DNA from: a virus
Virus record (IMG/VR): IMGVR_UViG_3300003702_000014
Span: 1-47,543 of that record
Length of the DNA stretch: 47,543 nucleotides
Strand: one strand, 5' to 3'
Part shown: piece by piece, positions 4,892-36,961 of the stretch
How positions within the stretch are numbered: the first letter of the stretch is position 1
Layout of the letters: each line of letters begins with the position of its first letter
Position numbers and translations under genes: made by a program
Notes under the pieces: generated by a model
Told to the model about the DNA's origin: nothing
Database searches by the model: none
Seen by the model: only the letters and a program-made list of their open reading frames with translations

Positions 4892-5329
4892 TTGTATATT
4901 TTTTGTAATTGGAGCAAGTTGTGCGGATTTTTGATACAGTTGTAGGAACAAGTTGTCTTTAGTTGTAGTTTTTAGCGGGGTTGCTTTGCTTGATTTTTTT
5001 GTATAACATGTTTACACAATAGACTCCTGATCTTCTCCAGAACAAACAGATTATTGAGTCGATCTCCCCCGCTGACGCTCCTCCGATCTCCAATTCAAAG
5101 TTCTGAGATTTGGAGTGGTGGAGTAATTGGTGGTTGGTGTTTGCTCTTGTTTTAATTATAGTAATATTATATCACACTTTTTGAAATATTGCAAGAGATG
5201 TTTTTGAGGTGGGGTGTGCGTGAAGGGGTTGGAATACGATTTAGTAACATAAAAAAATTTTATTTTTGGAAAGATGTTGAACAATACTGAGTTGTAAGTC
5301 TATGTAGTTGTAAATTGACCAACGATTGA
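4892..5329. other. non-coding spacer between converging operons
   Basis: No gene is seen. AGTTGT occurs at 4917, 4938, 4951, 4961, 5290 and 5306. An imperfect inverted repeat (CTCCAA ... TTGGAG) lies around 5087-5115. The right end holds A/T runs (AAAAAAATTTTATTTTT near 5251-5267) that may act as a weak terminator for the minus operon. A replication origin or regulatory role is possible but unproven. Confidence 0.4.
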
Positions 5330-5551
5330 TTACCAGTGTTGACGGAGGCGATCTAATCTATCCTTTTCATCTTGTATTATCTTTTGTTGTCTACGCTTGG
5401 CAGCGTTCATTTTTCTTTGTTTTTTCTCGGCTGGCTTCTCATAATGTTCTCTTTTTCTGACCTCTTGTAGAATACCTGCGTTGTCAACTTTCTTCCTGAA
5501 GATCCTTAAAGCACGCTCAAAGGGTAAGTTCTTAGAGTAAACCTTAGGCAT
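5330..5551 (-). CDS. rpsU: ribosomal protein bS21, phage-encoded, 73 aa
   Basis: The sequence PFERALRIFRKKVDNAG followed by ILQEVRKREHYEKP is the bS21 signature, and the remainder is the usual Lys/Arg-rich helix. bS21 joins the 30S subunit near the mRNA platform and helps initiation. Phage copies are thought to bias ribosomes toward phage messages. The start at 5551 (MPKVYSKN) fits the bacterial protein length. An upstream ATG at 5611 with AGGAAG in front would add 20 residues. It is the last gene of the minus-strand operon. Confidence 0.9.
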   Translation of the reverse strand: MPKVYSKNLPFERALRIFRKKVDNAGILQEVRKREHYEKPAEKKQRKMNAAKRRQQKIIQDEKDRLDRLRQHW

Positions 5552-5665
5552 CTGGTAAATCGTTCCATCTATAAAACTTCTTTGTTTTCCAATGCCAGTG
5601 CCACCCCTCATATTTGTGTGCTTCCTGTCTAAGTGAGTGCACGTATGTTCGGGTGTCTATTAGTT

Positions 5666-5896
5666 TCACCATGAGCCTCTCTCAGCATCATCTTTTGTTA
5701 CTGGAGGGGCTGTGCCAGAGAATAAACTTTCTTCATCTTCTTTCCAGCGTTTTAAATCAGTCATGTTTAAATCCATGGGCGATCTTATAAGTTTGATATT
5801 CGGATAGTATTTTAAGAAAAATGCTTTACTAGTAACGCTTAAAAGTCTTTGAAAGACTTCTCCCGTTCGTAAATTTTCGAATATGTAAAGCTTCAT
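5666..5896 (-). CDS. hypothetical protein, 76 aa
   Basis: The ATG overlaps the stop of the gene upstream (ATGA), which favours this start over one eight codons earlier. The product MKLYIFENLRTGEVFQRL... looks like a small alpha/beta protein with an acidic tail. No family is recognised. Confidence 0.65.
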   Translation of the reverse strand: MKLYIFENLRTGEVFQRLLSVTSKAFFLKYYPNIKLIRSPMDLNMTDLKRWKEDEESLFSGTAPPVTKDDAERGSW

Positions 5897-6828: not shown

Positions 6829-6839
6829 AAGAGGTGTTA

Positions 6840-6907: not shown

Positions 6908-6981
6908 GGTCTAATAGTGTAATGGGAACACGCAAGCTTGTCACGCTTGAAGTCGGAGTTCAATTCTCCGTTAGACCGCCA
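6908..6981 (+). tRNA. tRNA-Asp (anticodon GTC)
   Basis: A cloverleaf can be drawn: acceptor GGTCTAA/TTAGACC, D stem GTGT/ACAC, anticodon stem CAAGC/GCTTG with loop TTGTCAC, and T stem CGGAG/CTCCG with loop TTCAATT. The CCA end is encoded at 6979-6981. Confidence 0.93.
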
Positions 6982-7026
6982 AACCGAGTGAGGTTTGCAT
7001 ATCGAAAAGCCTCAATAGATTGTTAA

Positions 7027-7102
7027 GCGGGTATCGTATAGTGGTATATTACCGGAGCTTTCCAAGCTAATGACGCGGGTTCGATTCCCGCTACCCGCTC
7101 CA
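7027..7102 (+). tRNA. tRNA-Gly (anticodon TCC)
   Basis: The acceptor GCGGGTA/TACCCGC and T arm GCGGG-TTCGATT-CCCGC are perfect, and CCA is encoded. The anticodon loop TTTCCAA gives TCC. The anticodon stem GGAGC/GCTAA pairs at only three positions, leaving two adjacent G-A mismatches at its outer end, which is unusual. Confidence 0.9.
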
Positions 7103-7117
7103 ACAAGTAGTAAATAA

Positions 7118-7885
7118 ATGGATTCTAAATCAATAGATAAATTCTATACAAAACCAAATGTAGCTGAATTTTGCAGTCTAATCTTTTATAGATATATTAG
7201 ACAAGGAGAGGAAACAGTAGTTGAACCTTCAGCAGGAGCGGGCGCTTTCTCTGTCTACACAGACATAATGTTAGACTTATACCCCGACGTAGGCTATAGT
7301 AATTATATTACTAAGCAGGATTTTTTAAAATGGGATAGTAGTAAGTATAAATACTACCTAGGAAATCCGCCGTTCGGTAAAAATTCTTCATTAGCTGTAA
7401 AGTTCTTTAATCATGCCGCTAAAGGTAAAGGTATGATTGGATTTATACTACCCAGAACATTCAGAAAGAGTAGTATAACGAATCGTTTAGACTTAAACTT
7501 TTGGCTAATTAATGACACGATTTTACATAAAAATTCATTTACATTAGACGGAAAGCCTTATGCTGTTCCGTGCGTTTTTCAAATATGGGAGTATAGAGTA
7601 GAAAAACGAGACAAGATTATACTCCCAACAACTCATTCAGATTTTAGTTTCTGCTCAGCAGAAGACGCAGACTTCTCTATTCGTAGAGTAGGAGGTAGAG
7701 CAGGCAAAGTGAATCCGCATAATAATTATGCACCAGCTTCTAATTATTTTATTAAAGGGAGTTGTAAACAAACGTTCCTCAAACTAGAGTCTACTTTGCA
7801 TGAAATTGCACAAGATACTGCTGGAAACCCCAGTATAGGTAAAGGGGAGTTAATAGTAGCATACACAAAAGAAGTGGAGAGATAA
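7118..7885 (+). CDS. N6-adenine DNA methyltransferase-like protein, 255 aa
   Basis: Residues 36-44 (EPSAGAGAF) are the SAM-binding motif and 83-86 (NPPF) the catalytic motif of amino-methyltransferases. The following FFNHAAKGKGMIGFILPRTF matches the helix-strand region of type I/II adenine methyltransferases. It probably methylates adenine in DNA, protecting phage DNA or marking it. No target-recognition domain is obvious. No ribosome binding site is visible; the spacer to the tRNA-Gly is only 15 bases and contains AGTAGTAAATAAA. Confidence 0.8.
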   Translation: MDSKSIDKFYTKPNVAEFCSLIFYRYIRQGEETVVEPSAGAGAFSVYTDIMLDLYPDVGYSNYITKQDFLKWDSSKYKYYLGNPPFGKNSSLAVKFFNHAAKGKGMIGFILPRTFRKSSITNRLDLNFWLINDTILHKNSFTLDGKPYAVPCVFQIWEYRVEKRDKIILPTTHSDFSFCSAEDADFSIRRVGGRAGKVNPHNNYAPASNYFIKGSCKQTFLKLESTLHEIAQDTAGNPSIGKGELIVAYTKEVER

Positions 7886-18717: not shown

Positions 18718-18763
18718 AAAATAGTTCTTGACATAGCCCCCAAAATTTAGTATAATATCTCTA
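18718..18763 (+). promoter_or_regulatory. sigma-70-type promoter for ligase N-half
   Basis: AAAATAGTTC (18718-18727), TTGACA (18728-18733), 17 bases, TATAAT (18751-18756). The predicted start, 18763, is the A of the ligase ATG, implying a leaderless message. Confidence 0.9.
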
Positions 18764-19713
18764 TGAATAGAGATTTAGAAGTATACATAAATAAATGTCG
18801 CGATCAATACTACAAAGGTCTGCCCATCATTCCAGATGAGGTTTACGACCATTTAGTTGAAAACACACAACAAGAGTTTAGAATTGGGCATGAAACGAAC
18901 AGTAGATTCGCTCATCCCTTTCCTATGTACTCACTTCAAAAAGTCTTTTCAAATGAAGACACACCCCCCAATTATAAAAATTATGCAGTAGTTGCCACAC
19001 CTAAAATGGACGGCGCAGCTGTGTCTCTTTGTTATGTAGATGGTTTATTTCATGATGCACTTACTAGAGGAGATGGCATATCGGGTTTAGACGTAAGCGA
19101 TAAAATTAAGCATATCACACCTCGCTCATTAGAATTTGGCAAAACACTATTCTCTGGATTAAGACAAATCACAGGAGAAATTGTAGCTCCCAAAACAATA
19201 AAAAATGCGAGAAATTATGCAGCTGGTGCACTAAATCTAAAAGATGTAAAGGAGTTTAAAAAAAGAGAACTCACCTTAATAATTTATGGGATTCAACCAC
19301 AAATTGGGGAATACTGGAGTCAAGATATGAAACTCTTAGAAAATTGGTTTAATGTAATTACATTAGGCGATTACACTGAGTTCCCTCAAGACGGAACAGT
19401 ATTTCGTGTTGACAAGTATTCCTACTTTGAAGAATTAGGTCACACTTCTCATCACCCTCGCGGAGCATACGCGTTAAAAACAAGGGAGAAAGGAGTAGTT
19501 ACAAAATTACTTGATGTAGAATGGAATACAGGAAAGAGTGGAGCGGTAGCTCCCGTAGGAATTCTAGAACCAATAGAAATCAAAGGAGCTACTATCTCCC
19601 GAGCAACCCTACATAATATCGGTTTCATAAATCAATTAAATTTAGAAATAGGTTGCATGGTAGAAGTTATTAGAAGCGGGGAAATTATCCCTAGAATAGT
19701 GAGGAGAGTTTAA
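18763..19713 (+). CDS. ligA: NAD+-dependent DNA ligase, N-terminal half, 316 aa
   Basis: K81 in PKMDGAAVSLCYVDG is the adenylated lysine of the KxDG motif, and TRGDGISGLDVS (101-112) is motif III-like. EYNTGKSG-type and SRATLHNIG regions mark the end of the nucleotidyltransferase and the OB fold, ending GEIIPRIVRRV. The protein stops where bacterial LigA continues with a zinc finger, HhH and BRCT; those are encoded separately at 24442. It would seal nicks with NAD+ as the AMP donor. The helical NAD-binding Ia part is short. Two-gene ligases of this kind are known in T5-like phages. Confidence 0.93.
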   Translation: MNRDLEVYINKCRDQYYKGLPIIPDEVYDHLVENTQQEFRIGHETNSRFAHPFPMYSLQKVFSNEDTPPNYKNYAVVATPKMDGAAVSLCYVDGLFHDALTRGDGISGLDVSDKIKHITPRSLEFGKTLFSGLRQITGEIVAPKTIKNARNYAAGALNLKDVKEFKKRELTLIIYGIQPQIGEYWSQDMKLLENWFNVITLGDYTEFPQDGTVFRVDKYSYFEELGHTSHHPRGAYALKTREKGVVTKLLDVEWNTGKSGAVAPVGILEPIEIKGATISRATLHNIGFINQLNLEIGCMVEVIRSGEIIPRIVRRV

Positions 19714-24441: not shown

Positions 24442-25212
24442 ATGGAACAAATTTTAGCTCCCACGAACTGTCCCTCCTGCGATAGCGAATTGAATTTTAT
24501 TAACGAAATACTATATTGCTTTAACAAGATGTGTCCAGCTCAATGGGATAAAAAATTAGAAAACTTTGCTAAACATTTGAAGATAAAGGGGCTAGGTCCT
24601 GCAACTATTAACAAGTTGAAAATCCTAGACTATCCAGAACTTTATGAGCTTACTGTCGGGGAAACTACCGTCAGACTGGGCTCGGAGAAAATGGCGAAGA
24701 AGTTAGTAAATGAAATTGAGAAATCAAATTCGATAGATTTACAGACACTATTACCCGCTTTTTCTATTCCGCTTTTTGGTCGATCAGCTTCCCGTAAGTT
24801 ATGCGAAAAGGTTTCATCTATTGAAGATGTATCCATCGAAAGCTGCATTGAAGCAGGCATTGGTCCGAAAGCAACAGCTAACCTTATAGCATGGTTAGAA
24901 ACTGAGTTTTATCCGAATAGGTATAAAGAACTCTTACCGTTTAGTTTTAAATCGAAGAAAGTTATAAAACGACAAATAGTAGGAACTGTCTGCATAACAG
25001 GTAGACTCAAAAGTTTCCCCAGCAAAGCTCATGCTGAAAAAGTTTTGGAACAACATGGATATGTTGTAAAATCCAGTTTGACAAAAGACTGCACTCATCT
25101 AATAAATGAGAGTGGTATTGAGTCGGCTAAAACGCAGACTGCTCGGGAACGAGGAGTCATTATTATAAACAAACTAAATATTTTATTTGGAGAAAAAAAT
25201 GGCATTACCTAA
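24442..25212 (+). CDS. ligA: NAD+-dependent DNA ligase, C-terminal half, 256 aa
   Basis: C10, C13, C26 and C31 (NCPSC ... CFNKMC) form the ligase zinc finger. KIKGLGPATINKLKILDYPE and later GIGPKATANLIAWLE are the helix-hairpin-helix repeats. The last about 80 residues (GTVCITGRLKSFPSKAHAEK and THLINE) are a BRCT domain. These are exactly the parts missing from the 18763 protein. Together the two should form a working ligase. The gene has its own promoter. Confidence 0.93.
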   Translation: MEQILAPTNCPSCDSELNFINEILYCFNKMCPAQWDKKLENFAKHLKIKGLGPATINKLKILDYPELYELTVGETTVRLGSEKMAKKLVNEIEKSNSIDLQTLLPAFSIPLFGRSASRKLCEKVSSIEDVSIESCIEAGIGPKATANLIAWLETEFYPNRYKELLPFSFKSKKVIKRQIVGTVCITGRLKSFPSKAHAEKVLEQHGYVVKSSLTKDCTHLINESGIESAKTQTARERGVIIINKLNILFGEKNGIT

Positions 25213-28754: not shown

Positions 28755-29042
28755 ATGAATCAGAAAGATATAGAGAAGCATAAGGCTTCTCTCAAAGCGC
28801 AATTTACAAGAAATTTAGTAGCAAAAAATAGTAGAAATAAAAGTGGGGCAGGTTCACACACATCTGATAAAGACTATAATCGGTATGAAAAAGAGTATGA
28901 AAATGATGCTCTTTCATATATTGAATTAACAGAACAGATAGAACTACTTAAAGCACAACAAGCTGCAGGTGTAAATCTGAAAGAACGCGAACGTTTACAG
29001 TATGAAATAAATGAGTTACAAGATCAACTAAAGGAACTATAA
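28755..29042 (+). CDS. coiled-coil hypothetical protein, 95 aa
   Basis: AAGGAG lies 9 bases before the ATG at 28755, which is better spaced than the ATG at 28746. The second half is a coiled coil (LTEQIELLKAQQAAGVNLKE and LQYEINELQDQLKEL). The stop overlaps the next ATG. Confidence 0.65.
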   Translation: MNQKDIEKHKASLKAQFTRNLVAKNSRNKSGAGSHTSDKDYNRYEKEYENDALSYIELTEQIELLKAQQAAGVNLKERERLQYEINELQDQLKEL

Positions 29043-33209: not shown

Positions 33210-33857
33210 ATGGAAGAAAGAAAAATTGGTGTGATAGGTCACACTGGTGGAATAGGATTAGAAATTTTTAAAATCCTACAATTTAGAGGAGATGATGTAA
33301 AAGGTTACAGCAGATCCAATGGATTTAATATGGCTTTTAAACAGGGAGATGATATTATAAATGATATTCTAAGGAATGATCTTGATGTCGTCTTTAACAA
33401 TGCGTGGTATCCTAGAGTTCAATGTAAGATTCAAAAAACCTTGCATAAACAATGGGCAGATCGAGAAGATAAGTATGTTATCAGCACAGGGTCAGCAAGT
33501 ATATATCAACCGGGATTAACTGGTGATGTATACTTAAATGATAAAAAAGAATTAGCAGAGTATGCTAAGTCAGTAGCATCTGATTGGCCAGTAGTAAATA
33601 AATGTAGGTGTATGACAGTAAGCCTTGGTTGGACTAATACTCCAATGGTTGGCGAGCATGAAGGTTTTATTTCGGCTCATGAAGCTGCACGAATATTAGT
33701 ATATCTTATGCAGGAACAAAGTTATATAATTCCTGAACTTGTAGTAGCAAATAAACAGTTACCACGTGACGAAATATTAAAAATTAGAGATGCTGCAGCA
33801 GAGTATGTAGTTGATGACATAACTAAAACTAACAGATTATTAAATGCTGATCGATGA
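33210..33857 (+). CDS. NAD(P)-binding Rossmann-fold (SDR-like) protein, 215 aa
   Basis: AAGGA precedes the ATG. GHTGGIG at 10-16 after KIGVI is the dinucleotide-binding loop, and VVFNNAWYPR recalls the NNAG motif of short-chain dehydrogenases. YVISTGSAS gives the catalytic-strand region, though a full Y-x-x-x-K is not obvious. It could be a sugar or nucleotide-sugar reductase or epimerase. It starts the second cargo island. Confidence 0.65.
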   Translation: MEERKIGVIGHTGGIGLEIFKILQFRGDDVKGYSRSNGFNMAFKQGDDIINDILRNDLDVVFNNAWYPRVQCKIQKTLHKQWADREDKYVISTGSASIYQPGLTGDVYLNDKKELAEYAKSVASDWPVVNKCRCMTVSLGWTNTPMVGEHEGFISAHEAARILVYLMQEQSYIIPELVVANKQLPRDEILKIRDAAAEYVVDDITKTNRLLNADR

Positions 33858-34452
33858 AGCTGGGATAGGATTTGTTCATATACCCAGAACAGGCGGGACA
33901 AGTATAGAAGCTTCTTTACAAGCTAAGTATAAAAATGATATACGTCAGATAAATTCGCAGCAACAAGATAAAGCAATACAAGTAGTATATACAGTTCATG
34001 GCGGTAAGAAAGAGTTTCATAAGAAGCATGCTACTTACCATGAATTAATTGAGTTCGGTCCAGACTATAAATATTATGTATTAGTGAGACACCCTCTTAG
34101 AAGGATTGAAAGTTTATATAGACTTCTAGTACATATAAAGTTAGTAAATACAGAATTTGATAAATGGATTTACCGTTTAATATATGGATATATGTATGGG
34201 GAAGCCAATGCGGGATTAGATAAGGAACCCTACAATATAGAATTGAGGTATGGACCTCTTAGACAGGTAGAGTTTATAGGAAAAGCAGAAGTGCATAAAT
34301 TAGAAGAACAAACTATTTGGAAGGCATTAAATATTAGCCCGATAAAAGTTTTTGATCTTCCCAATGTGCTTCCAATAGTATGGAATAAACATAGTATTAA
34401 ACTGACGGAAAAATACTATGAAGTAGATTACGAGAAATTAAATTATGAATGA
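33844..34452 (+). CDS. sulfotransferase family protein, 202 aa
   Basis: IPRTGGTSIEASL (13-25) is the 5' phosphosulfate loop and VRHPLRRIESLYR (near 80) the 3' phosphate site of PAPS-dependent sulfotransferases. It should transfer sulfate, probably to a sugar or polysaccharide. The gene overlaps its neighbours. A shorter relative lacking the first loop lies at 17200. Confidence 0.82.
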   Translation: MLIDEAGIGFVHIPRTGGTSIEASLQAKYKNDIRQINSQQQDKAIQVVYTVHGGKKEFHKKHATYHELIEFGPDYKYYVLVRHPLRRIESLYRLLVHIKLVNTEFDKWIYRLIYGYMYGEANAGLDKEPYNIELRYGPLRQVEFIGKAEVHKLEEQTIWKALNISPIKVFDLPNVLPIVWNKHSIKLTEKYYEVDYEKLNYE

Positions 34453-34855
34453 CGCATCAGAATTTTGGCAAGCCATCAGAGATTATAATAAAGAAAGGGA
34501 GGAATATATCATGGAAGCAAAAAGTTATCCAATGATCAATACTGGAAAGAAAAATCCAGTAATAAAGGAGGCATTTGAAGATCGAATGAATATGAGAAAG
34601 TTAGAAGCAAGAGTAAATGCAATCGAAAAGAAACAAGCAGAACGATTTCCAATGTTAATGAAAAGACTGGATGAACTCGGGAAACCTCATTTCGGTCTAT
34701 TTAATATAGAAAGAATAGAACGAATTGAGAATTCATTTCCAGCGATTGTAACAAGATTGGAACAACTGGAAAACAGACAAAACGCAGCAATGTATAATGA
34801 TTCAGAAATGGATTATAGTGGAGCATTTGAATCGGATATAGATGCTAACCGTTGA
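34445..34855 (+). CDS. coiled-coil hypothetical protein, 136 aa
   Basis: The product is mostly charged helix (RKLEARVNAIEKKQAERF; IERIERIENSFPAIVTRLEQ). The C-terminus is acidic. It overlaps the sulfotransferase and methyltransferase genes. Function unknown. Confidence 0.6.
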   Translation: MNDASEFWQAIRDYNKEREEYIMEAKSYPMINTGKKNPVIKEAFEDRMNMRKLEARVNAIEKKQAERFPMLMKRLDELGKPHFGLFNIERIERIENSFPAIVTRLEQLENRQNAAMYNDSEMDYSGAFESDIDANR

Positions 34856-35372
34856 TAAACTAGCAAAAGAATATCGTTGGTATCATAAGAATGTAGGAAA
34901 CCTAAATGGGGGCTCTACTATTCTTAGTAAGAAACAAATTAAAAAATTTATAGACGAAGTAAAGCCTTCCACTATATTAGATTATGGTTGTGGAGCTGGA
35001 GTGCAATACAGAGGAAAAAAATGCCACGAATATTGGGGTGTTGATTTACCCTATATGTATGATCCTTATATTGAAAAATATAGTATAAAACCGACAGGAC
35101 ACTTTGATCTAGTACTATGCGTAGACGTATTAGAGTGCTTACATTATGATGAATTTCATGATGTTTTAGCTGAAGTCTGTTCATTCGGAGATGCGATATA
35201 CTTTAAACTTGATACAAAGCCCGCATCTAAAAAATTAAGAGGAGGTATTGATATGCACACAATTTTAAATAATGAAGATTGGTGGTATGAAACTCTTGAA
35301 ATTTTAGTTCCTGAGGATAAGAAAATAGCGATTAGTTTTAAACATGATAGAGTTAGTAGGTCAAATAGATGA
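34842..35372 (+). CDS. class I SAM-dependent methyltransferase, 176 aa
   Basis: TILDYGCGAG (44-53) is motif I, YWGVDLPY motif II, and FDLVLCVDVLECL motif IV of class I methyltransferases. No DNA methyltransferase NPPY-type motif is present, so a small molecule, sugar or protein substrate is more likely. It overlaps the flanking genes. Confidence 0.78.
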   Translation: MLTVDKLAKEYRWYHKNVGNLNGGSTILSKKQIKKFIDEVKPSTILDYGCGAGVQYRGKKCHEYWGVDLPYMYDPYIEKYSIKPTGHFDLVLCVDVLECLHYDEFHDVLAEVCSFGDAIYFKLDTKPASKKLRGGIDMHTILNNEDWWYETLEILVPEDKKIAISFKHDRVSRSNR

Positions 35373-35581
35373 AAGAAACATTTGAAAAAAGATTAGAACG
35401 CAGAATGAAAAACTGGAAACAAGAACAACACGAAAAGAAAATATTTGGCGATCCAGAAACTGAAGAAGTGGAGTGGAAAATAGTAGAGTTAGAAGGCGGT
35501 GGTTTTATAAGAAAACCTTTTAAAGTATACAAAAAAGAACAGTGGAAAAAACAAGTAGAAGAATGGTATGGTTTAAAATGA
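35369..35581 (+). CDS. hypothetical charged protein, 70 aa
   Basis: The product is Lys/Glu-rich, ending QVEEWYGLK. Its last 31 bases are the left copy of the direct repeat around nfuA. The right copy after nfuA is a remnant of this gene end that is no longer attached to it. Confidence 0.65.
   Translation: MKETFEKRLERRMKNWKQEQHEKKIFGDPETEEVEWKIVELEGGGFIRKPFKVYKKEQWKKQVEEWYGLK
35551..35581 (+). repeat. 31-bp direct repeat, left copy
   Basis: Starts ACAAGTAGAAG and ends GGTTTAAAATGA. It is identical to 36149-36179. It covers the last codons of the 35369 gene, its TGA, and the ATG of nfuA. Confidence 0.95.
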
Positions 35582-36156
35582 AAATAACAGAATCAGCACA
35601 AGAGTTTTTAAGTGAACTCCTTGCAACTAAAGGACAATTTGCTATGGGCATTAAAATAGAAGTCCTTGAGCCTGGCACTCCTAGAGGAGAGACAGTTATT
35701 GCATATGCTACAGAAGAGGATGACTTATCAAATTATAGACTAGAAGAAGGGTATAATTTTAAAGTATATTTAGATGAAAAATCTTTATGTTATATGGAAG
35801 GTGCTATTGTAGATCATTCGAAAGATAGATTTGGTGGCACACTAACGATCAAAGCACCAAATTCAAAAATACCCGAAGTAACAGAAGATGCCTCTTTAGA
35901 ACAAAGAATAAATTATGTATTGTATTCAGAGATTAACCCTGCTCTAGCAAGTCATGGTGGAGAGGTATCATTACATGAAGTTGTTAATGACGATACAGCT
36001 GTACTTACATTTGGTGGTGGTTGTCAAGGTTGTGGTATGGTAGATGTAACCTTAAAGGCGGGAGTAGAAAGGACATTATTAGAACAGGTAGCAGGACTGG
36101 CAGCGGTTACAGATATAACAGACCACAGTTACAAAGAAAACGCATATTACAAGTAG
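35578..36156 (+). CDS. nfuA: NfuA, Fe-S cluster carrier protein, 192 aa
   Basis: Length and whole-protein layout follow E. coli NfuA. There is an A-type-like N-terminal domain (ITESAQEFLSELLATKG; LTIKAPNSK) and a NifU-type C-terminal domain with C149-x-x-C152 in FGGGCQGCGMVDVTLK. NfuA dimers hold a 4Fe-4S cluster and deliver it to apo-enzymes, especially under stress. It starts by ATGA overlap with the preceding gene. A perfect 31-bp repeat brackets it, so it looks recently acquired from a bacterial source. Confidence 0.96.
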   Translation: MKITESAQEFLSELLATKGQFAMGIKIEVLEPGTPRGETVIAYATEEDDLSNYRLEEGYNFKVYLDEKSLCYMEGAIVDHSKDRFGGTLTIKAPNSKIPEVTEDASLEQRINYVLYSEINPALASHGGEVSLHEVVNDDTAVLTFGGGCQGCGMVDVTLKAGVERTLLEQVAGLAAVTDITDHSYKENAYYK

Positions 36157-36179
36157 AAGAATGGTATGGTTTAAAATGA
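36149..36179 (+). repeat. 31-bp direct repeat, right copy
   Basis: Identical to 35551-35581. It begins within the last codons of nfuA and ends at the ATG of the QueC-like gene, so removal of one copy plus nfuA would join the 35369 gene to the QueC-like gene by a clean ATGA. Confidence 0.95.
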
Positions 36180-36961
36180 CACTAGTAACATCAGAAGATA
36201 TTGCAAAGGCGTGTGCAGATCACCCTGAAACTAATGCATACATGCCCCTTAGTGCGGGAGTGGAAAGTACAGCAACTTTATTATATGCAGTAAAAGATCC
36301 AGAGATACACCCCTTGTGTGTTCATTGGTATGAGCCACGCTATGGACAGTTTGCTGATGCAATGGCTTTTTATAGTAAGAAACAGGCAGACCATTTTAAT
36401 TTACCGTATGGAAATGATACTTCTATGCTTTCTACAATAGGGCATACTAGAGAAGTTCCAATTATTATAAGTGGATTAAGTGCTTTCATGCAATGTGTTA
36501 TTGGTAAGCCCGGAGGTATTAACTGGAAATGGTTTATGATGGGTGGTAACGCTGAAGATGATATGCGTATGCGTCTACAGTTTAGAGAATATCGTAAGAT
36601 TATGATAAACTATTTAAGTGATTGTTTAGACTCATCTGGTGTGCACTTTGATGCAATTAGAGATGTTCCAGAAGTAAGAAATCCATTAGATTTTTTAAGT
36701 AAAGCAGAAATGCTTTCTTTAATACTGAGGCATGATCCAAAACTATATGATATGATTTGGTGTTGCCCTTTTCCTAAAGGAACTCTTACTAAAGATAATG
36801 AAATTACAGGCTACATTCCCTGTGGGGAATGTTATAAATGCGGAGAATTTAAAGCCGCGCATAAACTAGCAAAAGATGCAAAGTTTAGATATCAGGAAGG
36901 AAAGGAGTATTACACTCGTTTCTATGAAGTAGAAAAGAAAATGGGGAAAGATAATCGATAG
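36176..36961 (+). CDS. QueC-like PP-loop ATPase, 261 aa
   Basis: PLSAGVEST (24-32) sits where PP-loop ATPases have SGGxDS; the Asp is replaced by Glu. The C-terminal IPCGECYKCGEF matches the zinc-binding Cys cluster of QueC (preQ0 synthase), and DPKLYDMIWCCPFPKG fits the preceding loop. It may activate a carboxylate or related group with ATP, but 7-deazaguanine synthesis is not certain. The ATG at 36176 (ATGA of the repeat) is preferred over 36161. Confidence 0.62.
   Translation: MTLVTSEDIAKACADHPETNAYMPLSAGVESTATLLYAVKDPEIHPLCVHWYEPRYGQFADAMAFYSKKQADHFNLPYGNDTSMLSTIGHTREVPIIISGLSAFMQCVIGKPGGINWKWFMMGGNAEDDMRMRLQFREYRKIMINYLSDCLDSSGVHFDAIRDVPEVRNPLDFLSKAEMLSLILRHDPKLYDMIWCCPFPKGTLTKDNEITGYIPCGECYKCGEFKAAHKLAKDAKFRYQEGKEYYTRFYEVEKKMGKDNR

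Follow-up and report, generated by a model that had tools for sequence, protein, structure and literature searches.

A SAR86-like nfuA gene between two copies of a 31-bp direct repeat in a viral operon, probably joined at short shared sequences

nfuA is flanked by a perfect 31-bp direct repeat

The analysis of the window (the whole stretch of 47,543 nucleotides of viral DNA) favours, on balance, the reading that nfuA, a gene for an Fe-S carrier protein, is a fairly recent single-gene arrival that entered a slot upstream of a QueC-like gene of a marine phage through two microhomology-guided joints. The features on which this reading turns are the following:

35369..35581, plus strand: g70, a 70-aa ORF of no family and the upstream neighbour of nfuA; it ends with the left 31-bp repeat copy
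35551..35581, plus strand: left 31-bp copy, made of the g70 tail (..QVEEWYGLK-stop) and the ATGA start of nfuA; judged original
35578..36156, plus strand: nfuA, encoding a 192-aa Fe-S carrier protein with an A-type-like N-terminal domain and a NifU domain with a C-x-x-C motif (FGGGCQGCGMVD)
36149..36179, plus strand: right 31-bp copy, made of the final 8 bp of nfuA with the TAG stop, the duplicate of the g70 tail and the ATGA start of the QueC-like gene; judged a duplicate
36161..36961, plus strand: QueC-like gene, lying downstream of nfuA and forming the fixed right edge of the slot; conserved start at 36176, with a possible start at 36161 that adds MVWFK

The 31-mer ACAAGTAGAAGAATGGTATGGTTTAAAATGA occurs without mismatch at 35551-35581 and 36149-36179, the copies starting 598 bp apart, as a sequence-only reading of this DNA had reported. 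No other exact direct repeat in the 47.5 kb is as long, the runners-up measuring 20 bp, and a length of 31 bp is far beyond chance when compared with 100 dinucleotide-preserving shuffles (mean longest repeat 15.9, maximum 19). The same reading had assigned the left copy to the end of the gene at 35369 plus the start of nfuA, and the right copy to the stretch from the end of nfuA to the ATG of the QueC-like gene; both assignments are borne out, with the nfuA start ATG (35578) lying in the left copy as an ATGA overlap with g70, the nfuA end ..TAC AAG TAG (stop 36154-36156) in the right copy, and the QueC-like ATG (36176) also in the right copy, together with an in-frame ATG at 36161. Its description of nfuA as "bracketed exactly" holds insofar as the repeat flanks the gene, but the two copies overlap nfuA itself, the right one by 8 bp and the left one by 4 bp. 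The identity of all 31 bases bounds the age of the duplication: assuming neutrality, 0.05 substitutions per site per copy would leave all 31 unchanged with a probability of 4.5%, and 0.1 with a probability of 0.2%. A segment inside nfuA, TAGAAGAAGGGTATAATTTTAAA (35741-35763), resembles part of the repeat with 83% identity, probably by chance.

Neither the exact 31-mer nor a degenerate EEWYGLK+ATGA pattern had any match in the viral contig collection (viral_contigs) besides the window. This bears on the possibility that the repeat falsely joined two sequences in a metagenome graph, a concern for any record that, like this one, is an uncultivated virus contig; with the 31-mer in no other viral contig there was nothing to confuse, both joints yield intact, in-frame and closely coupled genes, and the GC content of nfuA (0.366) matches that of the window (0.358), so that an assembly artefact is quite improbable. 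Retention of the repeat for function, as a conserved translation-coupling segment for nfuA and QueC rather than a recent scar, would agree with the fact that each copy has at its end the ATGA with which the following gene starts, and in relatives too the 3' end of the upstream gene provides the start of the next. Against it, no RNA structure (z 0.12 and 0.65) and no Rfam element were found in the repeat, there is no strong Shine-Dalgarno sequence, other gene junctions carry no comparable repeat, and perfect identity over 31 bp exceeds what an initiation signal needs; we regard a functional repeat as very improbable. Barely credible is a transposition-like insertion at a staggered break, with the repeat as a target-site duplication: the insert is indeed flanked by direct repeats, but 31 bp is unusually long for such a duplication, the insert consists of the ORF only, with no transposase or homing endonuclease inside it and no terminal inverted repeats at the nfuA ends, and nfuA itself contains the 8 bp and 4 bp that are shared.

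The gene lies in a variable slot upstream of a QueC-like gene

The QueC-like gene (weak match to PHROG 1550, 3.5e-6) is present in 28 viral loci at 61-85%, around which the order polA-SDR ... QueC-...-asnB-helicase is kept while the interval between SDR and QueC varies. Judged by this comparison of gene order, the position of nfuA, next to the QueC-like gene on its upstream side, is a variable slot. In most of the distant relatives SDR adjoins QueC, with one other gene between them in L048, and nearer relatives have various genes in addition; two loci (L007, L015) read SDR-sulfotransferase-QueC; L010 and L012 have an additional small membrane ORF. The slot of L027 has an additional membrane ORF, a methyltransferase and a ~60-aa ORF, and that of L006 an 85-aa ORF, the methyltransferase, the same ~60-aa ORF and a lipoprotein-like ORF. 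The window slot holds a sulfotransferase, a 136-aa ORF, a methyltransferase, g70 and nfuA, the first three of which were identified as slot occupants by presence or absence across relatives, with Pfam matches as further evidence:

33844-34452, plus strand: sulfotransferase-like gene
34445-34855, plus strand: 136-aa ORF
34842-35372, plus strand: methyltransferase-like gene

The g70-nfuA pair was found at the slot in none of the 28 QueC-bearing viral loci. The slot of the closest relative (L006, on contig G001), whose polA DNA is 91.5% identical with a four-fold-site difference of 0.14-0.24, has neither g70 nor nfuA, as is also the case for L027 and the other QueC contigs; hence the arrival of nfuA probably postdates the split from L006, unless g70-nfuA was lost there. 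These observations, together with the judgement that the right copy is the duplicate, support the earlier proposal that nfuA is an insertion, and the anciently conserved repeat that had been set as its counter-case did not appear in relatives. The g70-nfuA-QueC structure is carried by one genome only, a single uncultivated virus record (G000). An empty g70-QueC site with a single 31-bp copy was not found, and the collections searched contain no g70 adjoining QueC. By its DNA polymerase the window is closest (about 44%) to phages such as Vibrio phage Thalassa and Salmonella phage Shivani, which we take to be T5-like; a blastn search against named phages for a counterpart of the slot gave no match.

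The left copy is judged to be the ancestral tail of g70

The g70 product had no match in Pfam, PHROGs or NCBIfam. Its homologues (L016-L025; about 79-88% over residues 2-52) lie at a different locus in other phages, several of them directly upstream of a homologue of the window gene at 29042, and g70 itself appears to have moved in from another locus. The C-terminus reads FKEWYTRGG in L016-L019 and L025 versus VEEWYGLK in the window, and the corresponding 3' ends are ...WKEHLESMKSKAFKEWYTRGG in the near-identical L016-L019, similar in L025, and ...QWKKQVEEWYGLK in the window. Because the homologues end in a similar EWY motif, the 31-bp tail can be read as g70's own and the copy behind nfuA as its duplicate; we therefore judge the left copy to be the ancestral g70 tail and the right copy the duplicate. 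The final residues differ (GLK in the window, TRGG in the homologues), and the end of the 31-mer may thus derive from the QueC leader, which would mean that g70 and QueC were adjacent before nfuA arrived. In one homologue locus (L025, 4934-5023), a 24-bp direct repeat with copies 66 bp apart duplicates the start of the g70 homologue.

Comparison with L006 and L027 also indicates what may have preceded g70 in the slot. In both, the ~60-aa ORF comes after the methyltransferase, and its remnant lies at the end of the methyltransferase gene of the window, which suggests that g70 replaced this ORF:

35344..35385, plus strand: probable remnant, the start of the ~60-aa ORF (MIELVGQIDERNI-stop), recognised by sequence comparison with L006 and L027

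The nfuA product is divergent and SAR86-like

The nfuA ORF is intact, and its product has the A-type-like N-terminal domain and the NifU domain with CxxC. It matches Pfam NifU (4.5e-17), PHROG 18436 (4e-41) and, over its full length, NCBIfam NfuA TIGR03341 (E 7e-70), in the last case below the equivalog cut-off (234.6 vs 269.35 bits). On these profile matches the protein is a divergent NfuA-like member, full length but short of the equivalog score. Its best matches are from SAR86, at up to 67%, while other viral-contig NfuAs reach up to 50%. This affiliation was further strengthened by a maximum-likelihood tree that places the protein inside the SAR86 clade (support 100/98) on a long branch (0.51), and a clade uniting it with the other viral-contig NfuAs was rejected (p-AU 0.021).

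Recent capture from a sampled SAR86 host was ruled out by the identity of 67% at best. The 31-mer core, with up to 2 mismatches allowed, is absent from 35 SAR86 genomes and therefore did not travel with nfuA from a sampled host. Since NfuA is far more diverged from sampled SAR86 than the repeat copies are from each other, an unsampled SAR86 or an intermediate phage is indicated as supplier; thus nfuA is SAR86-like and probably reached the slot through an unsampled SAR86 lineage or another phage. No donor nfuA genome was found, and none of 33 other viral-contig nfuA loci has a flanking repeat longer than 11 bp. The named-phage matches to NfuA were discarded: a 115-kb record labelled Acinetobacter phage MD-2021a (L207, CAKLQF020000014.1), in which the stretch read has nfuA beside fepA, cynT and tesA, looks like bacterial chromosome, and two further matches are Salmonella assembly contigs of more than 500 kb.

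Both joints probably formed at microhomology

To place the joints, the ends of nfuA were compared with those of SAR86 genes, and two short segments emerged as candidates:

35578..35581, plus strand: ATGA, the probable left-hand microhomology, common to the g70 stop/QueC start and the codon-4 ATGA of several SAR86 nfuA genes
36149..36156, plus strand: ACAAGTAG, the probable right-hand microhomology, common to the native nfuA 3' end and g70 35551-35558

All 20 of the SAR86 nfuA 3' ends read encode NAYY followed by K (R in one) and a stop. The L189 gene ends ..TACTACAAGTAG, with all 8 bases of the repeat start, and the L204 gene ends ..TACAAGTAA. The notion that the right copy supplied a stop codon missing from nfuA was set aside, NAYYK-stop being native in SAR86. 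At the other end, several SAR86 nfuA genes start M-x-E-M-[TN]-IT, and their codon-4 ATGA aligns with the first codon of the phage gene (e.g., L189, GAAATGAATATAACC); the phage gene is about 3 N-terminal codons short relative to SAR86, as expected from a joint at this ATGA. Both junctions thus probably lie on microhomology, of 4-6 bp on the left and 4-8 bp on the right, which may be as short as 4 bp on each side. The shared ATGA by itself says little, since no insertion into an overlapping operon could work without a start codon at that place; the right-hand ACAAGTAG is the stronger clue. Simple tandem duplication, as the sequence-only reading had also suggested, fits poorly with these ends, which instead fit microhomology joints with a foreign gene.

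Initially, in the favoured course of events, g70 would have abutted QueC, with an ATGA overlap between them. A strand that ended in the g70 ATGA would then, in replication or recombination-repair, pair with the ATGA near the 5' end of an nfuA template; nfuA would be copied, and its 3' end, ACAAGTAG, would then pair with the same 8-mer in the g70 tail, 27 bp behind the exit point. Copying on into QueC would leave the last 31 bp of g70 on both sides of nfuA. Both neighbours would keep their reading frames because the overlap adapter (the g70 tail plus ATGA) is duplicated. This two-joint model would account for the arrangement as a whole, for neighbours that stay in frame, for the missing N-terminal codons and for the second copy of the tail. 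The same product would result whether a replicating strand switched template or exonuclease-processed ends annealed. The joining steps, their direction and the intermediate donor are what we infer; alternatively to a single-gene arrival, g70 and nfuA may have come together in one complex event.

A different route, unlikely though worth weighing, is homologous recombination with a phage carrying nfuA beside or between the same 31 bp, so that nfuA arrived as a preformed block. Homologous recombination can act on a stretch of 31 bp, the length of the NfuA branch implies that the gene passed through some intermediate carrier, which may have been another phage, and g70 itself appears to be a migrant. 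The absence of the exact and degenerate patterns from other viral contigs speaks against this route, as do the other nfuA-bearing viral contigs examined, which lack the flanking repeat, and the native nfuA ends, which fit direct microhomology joints. Published parallels exist in the mycobacteriophages Island3 and LRRHood, for which recombination through shared sequence has been discussed (Pope et al. 2011, PMC3029335).

Returning to the two-joint model, the window differs from G001 and G009 by several other gene-sized differences at gene junctions, whose joints have some 2-6 bp in common, in many cases inside ATG/ATGA, and none of which has a long repeat. As judged from these comparisons, gene entry at ATGA junctions is common in this phage group and the 31-bp duplication is the exception. 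A more speculative extension, which we hold to be doubtful, is that the junction upstream of QueC acts as a self-renewing docking port, where incoming genes would join at the ATGA stop-start, regenerate the ATGA adapter before QueC and accumulate one after another; if so, nfuA, whose adapter duplicate has not yet changed, would represent the most recent of these additions. Deleting the segment between the copies in silico restored the ATGA overlap of g70 and QueC, in line with what had been proposed from the sequence. Repeat-mediated deletion makes loss between 31-bp repeats plausible, and precise loss of nfuA from such a "removable cassette" is a possible outcome that we offer as a prediction.

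Other features of the window

A promoter-like sequence, approximately AAAATAGTTCTTGACA ... TATAAT, recurs at 6830, 8037, 14201, 17550, 18708, 24358, 29616 and 41821, and probably represents the phage's own set of strong sigma-70-type promoters. A tandem 20-bp repeat, TAGTAGTAAATAAACGATAT, occurs at 2572-2613 as two copies 22 bp apart, and its counterpart in G001 lies at a junction with extra DNA in that contig. The NAD-dependent DNA ligase is apparently split between 18763-19713 (a PHROG 3359 match) and 24442-25212 (judged by eye). A second tRNA gene and a methylase-like gene lie at 6908-7885, and at the corresponding place, about 5014-5770, G001 (L208) seemingly has several tRNA genes.

Significance and comparison with known systems

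The arrangement illustrates, base by base, how a host-type metabolic gene can enter an overlapping phage operon and leave its neighbours unbroken, with one joint falling on the stop-start overlap and the return joint a little upstream, whereby the overlap is copied as well. Marine phage cargo also gains an Fe-S carrier gene; sufA-type Fe-S genes have been reported in OM43 phages (PMC10580990), and no paper on a phage-encoded NfuA was found in the literature searched. SAR86 is a possible phage host, to which one gene points; the group is dominant in the ocean and was called resistant to cultivation in 2013 (PMC3569297).

Like the SAR86-branch NfuA Fe-S carriers (TIGR03341), the window protein has the two-domain full-length architecture, CxxC and a C-terminal NAYYK, whereas it scores below the cut-off, shares 67% identity at best and is about 3 residues shorter at the N-terminus. 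The accretion of morons and auxiliary metabolic genes in tailed phages likewise places a host-type metabolic gene between phage genes; morons are obvious stand-alone units, whereas nfuA is translationally coupled to its neighbours. The closest likeness is to two mycobacteriophages. In Island3, gene 68 is inserted after gene 67 with a shared 3' end of about 50-60 bp that is single-copy in Brujita (Pope et al. 2011, PMC3029335), again with a single extra gene immediately following one whose 3' end (18 codons) recurs downstream. The Island3 repeat, however, makes up the 3' end of the inserted gene, and its empty relative is known; the repeat in the window is a short, perfect one with the next gene's start behind it, and although searches for an empty relative found none, the family and likely source of the inserted gene are known. 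In LRRHood, a 1.35-kb insert (genes 43-46) is flanked by 29-bp repeats that are single-copy in Cali, by a route that the authors were unable to reconstruct (PMC3029335); direct repeats likewise form the flanks, with one copy in the end of the upstream gene, although four genes were inserted there and a single gene at an ATGA overlap here. Of the features that mark both cases, the window presents direct-repeat flanks that include the 3' end of the upstream gene and an insert absent from close relatives, and its structure is of the same kind as theirs, not a new kind.
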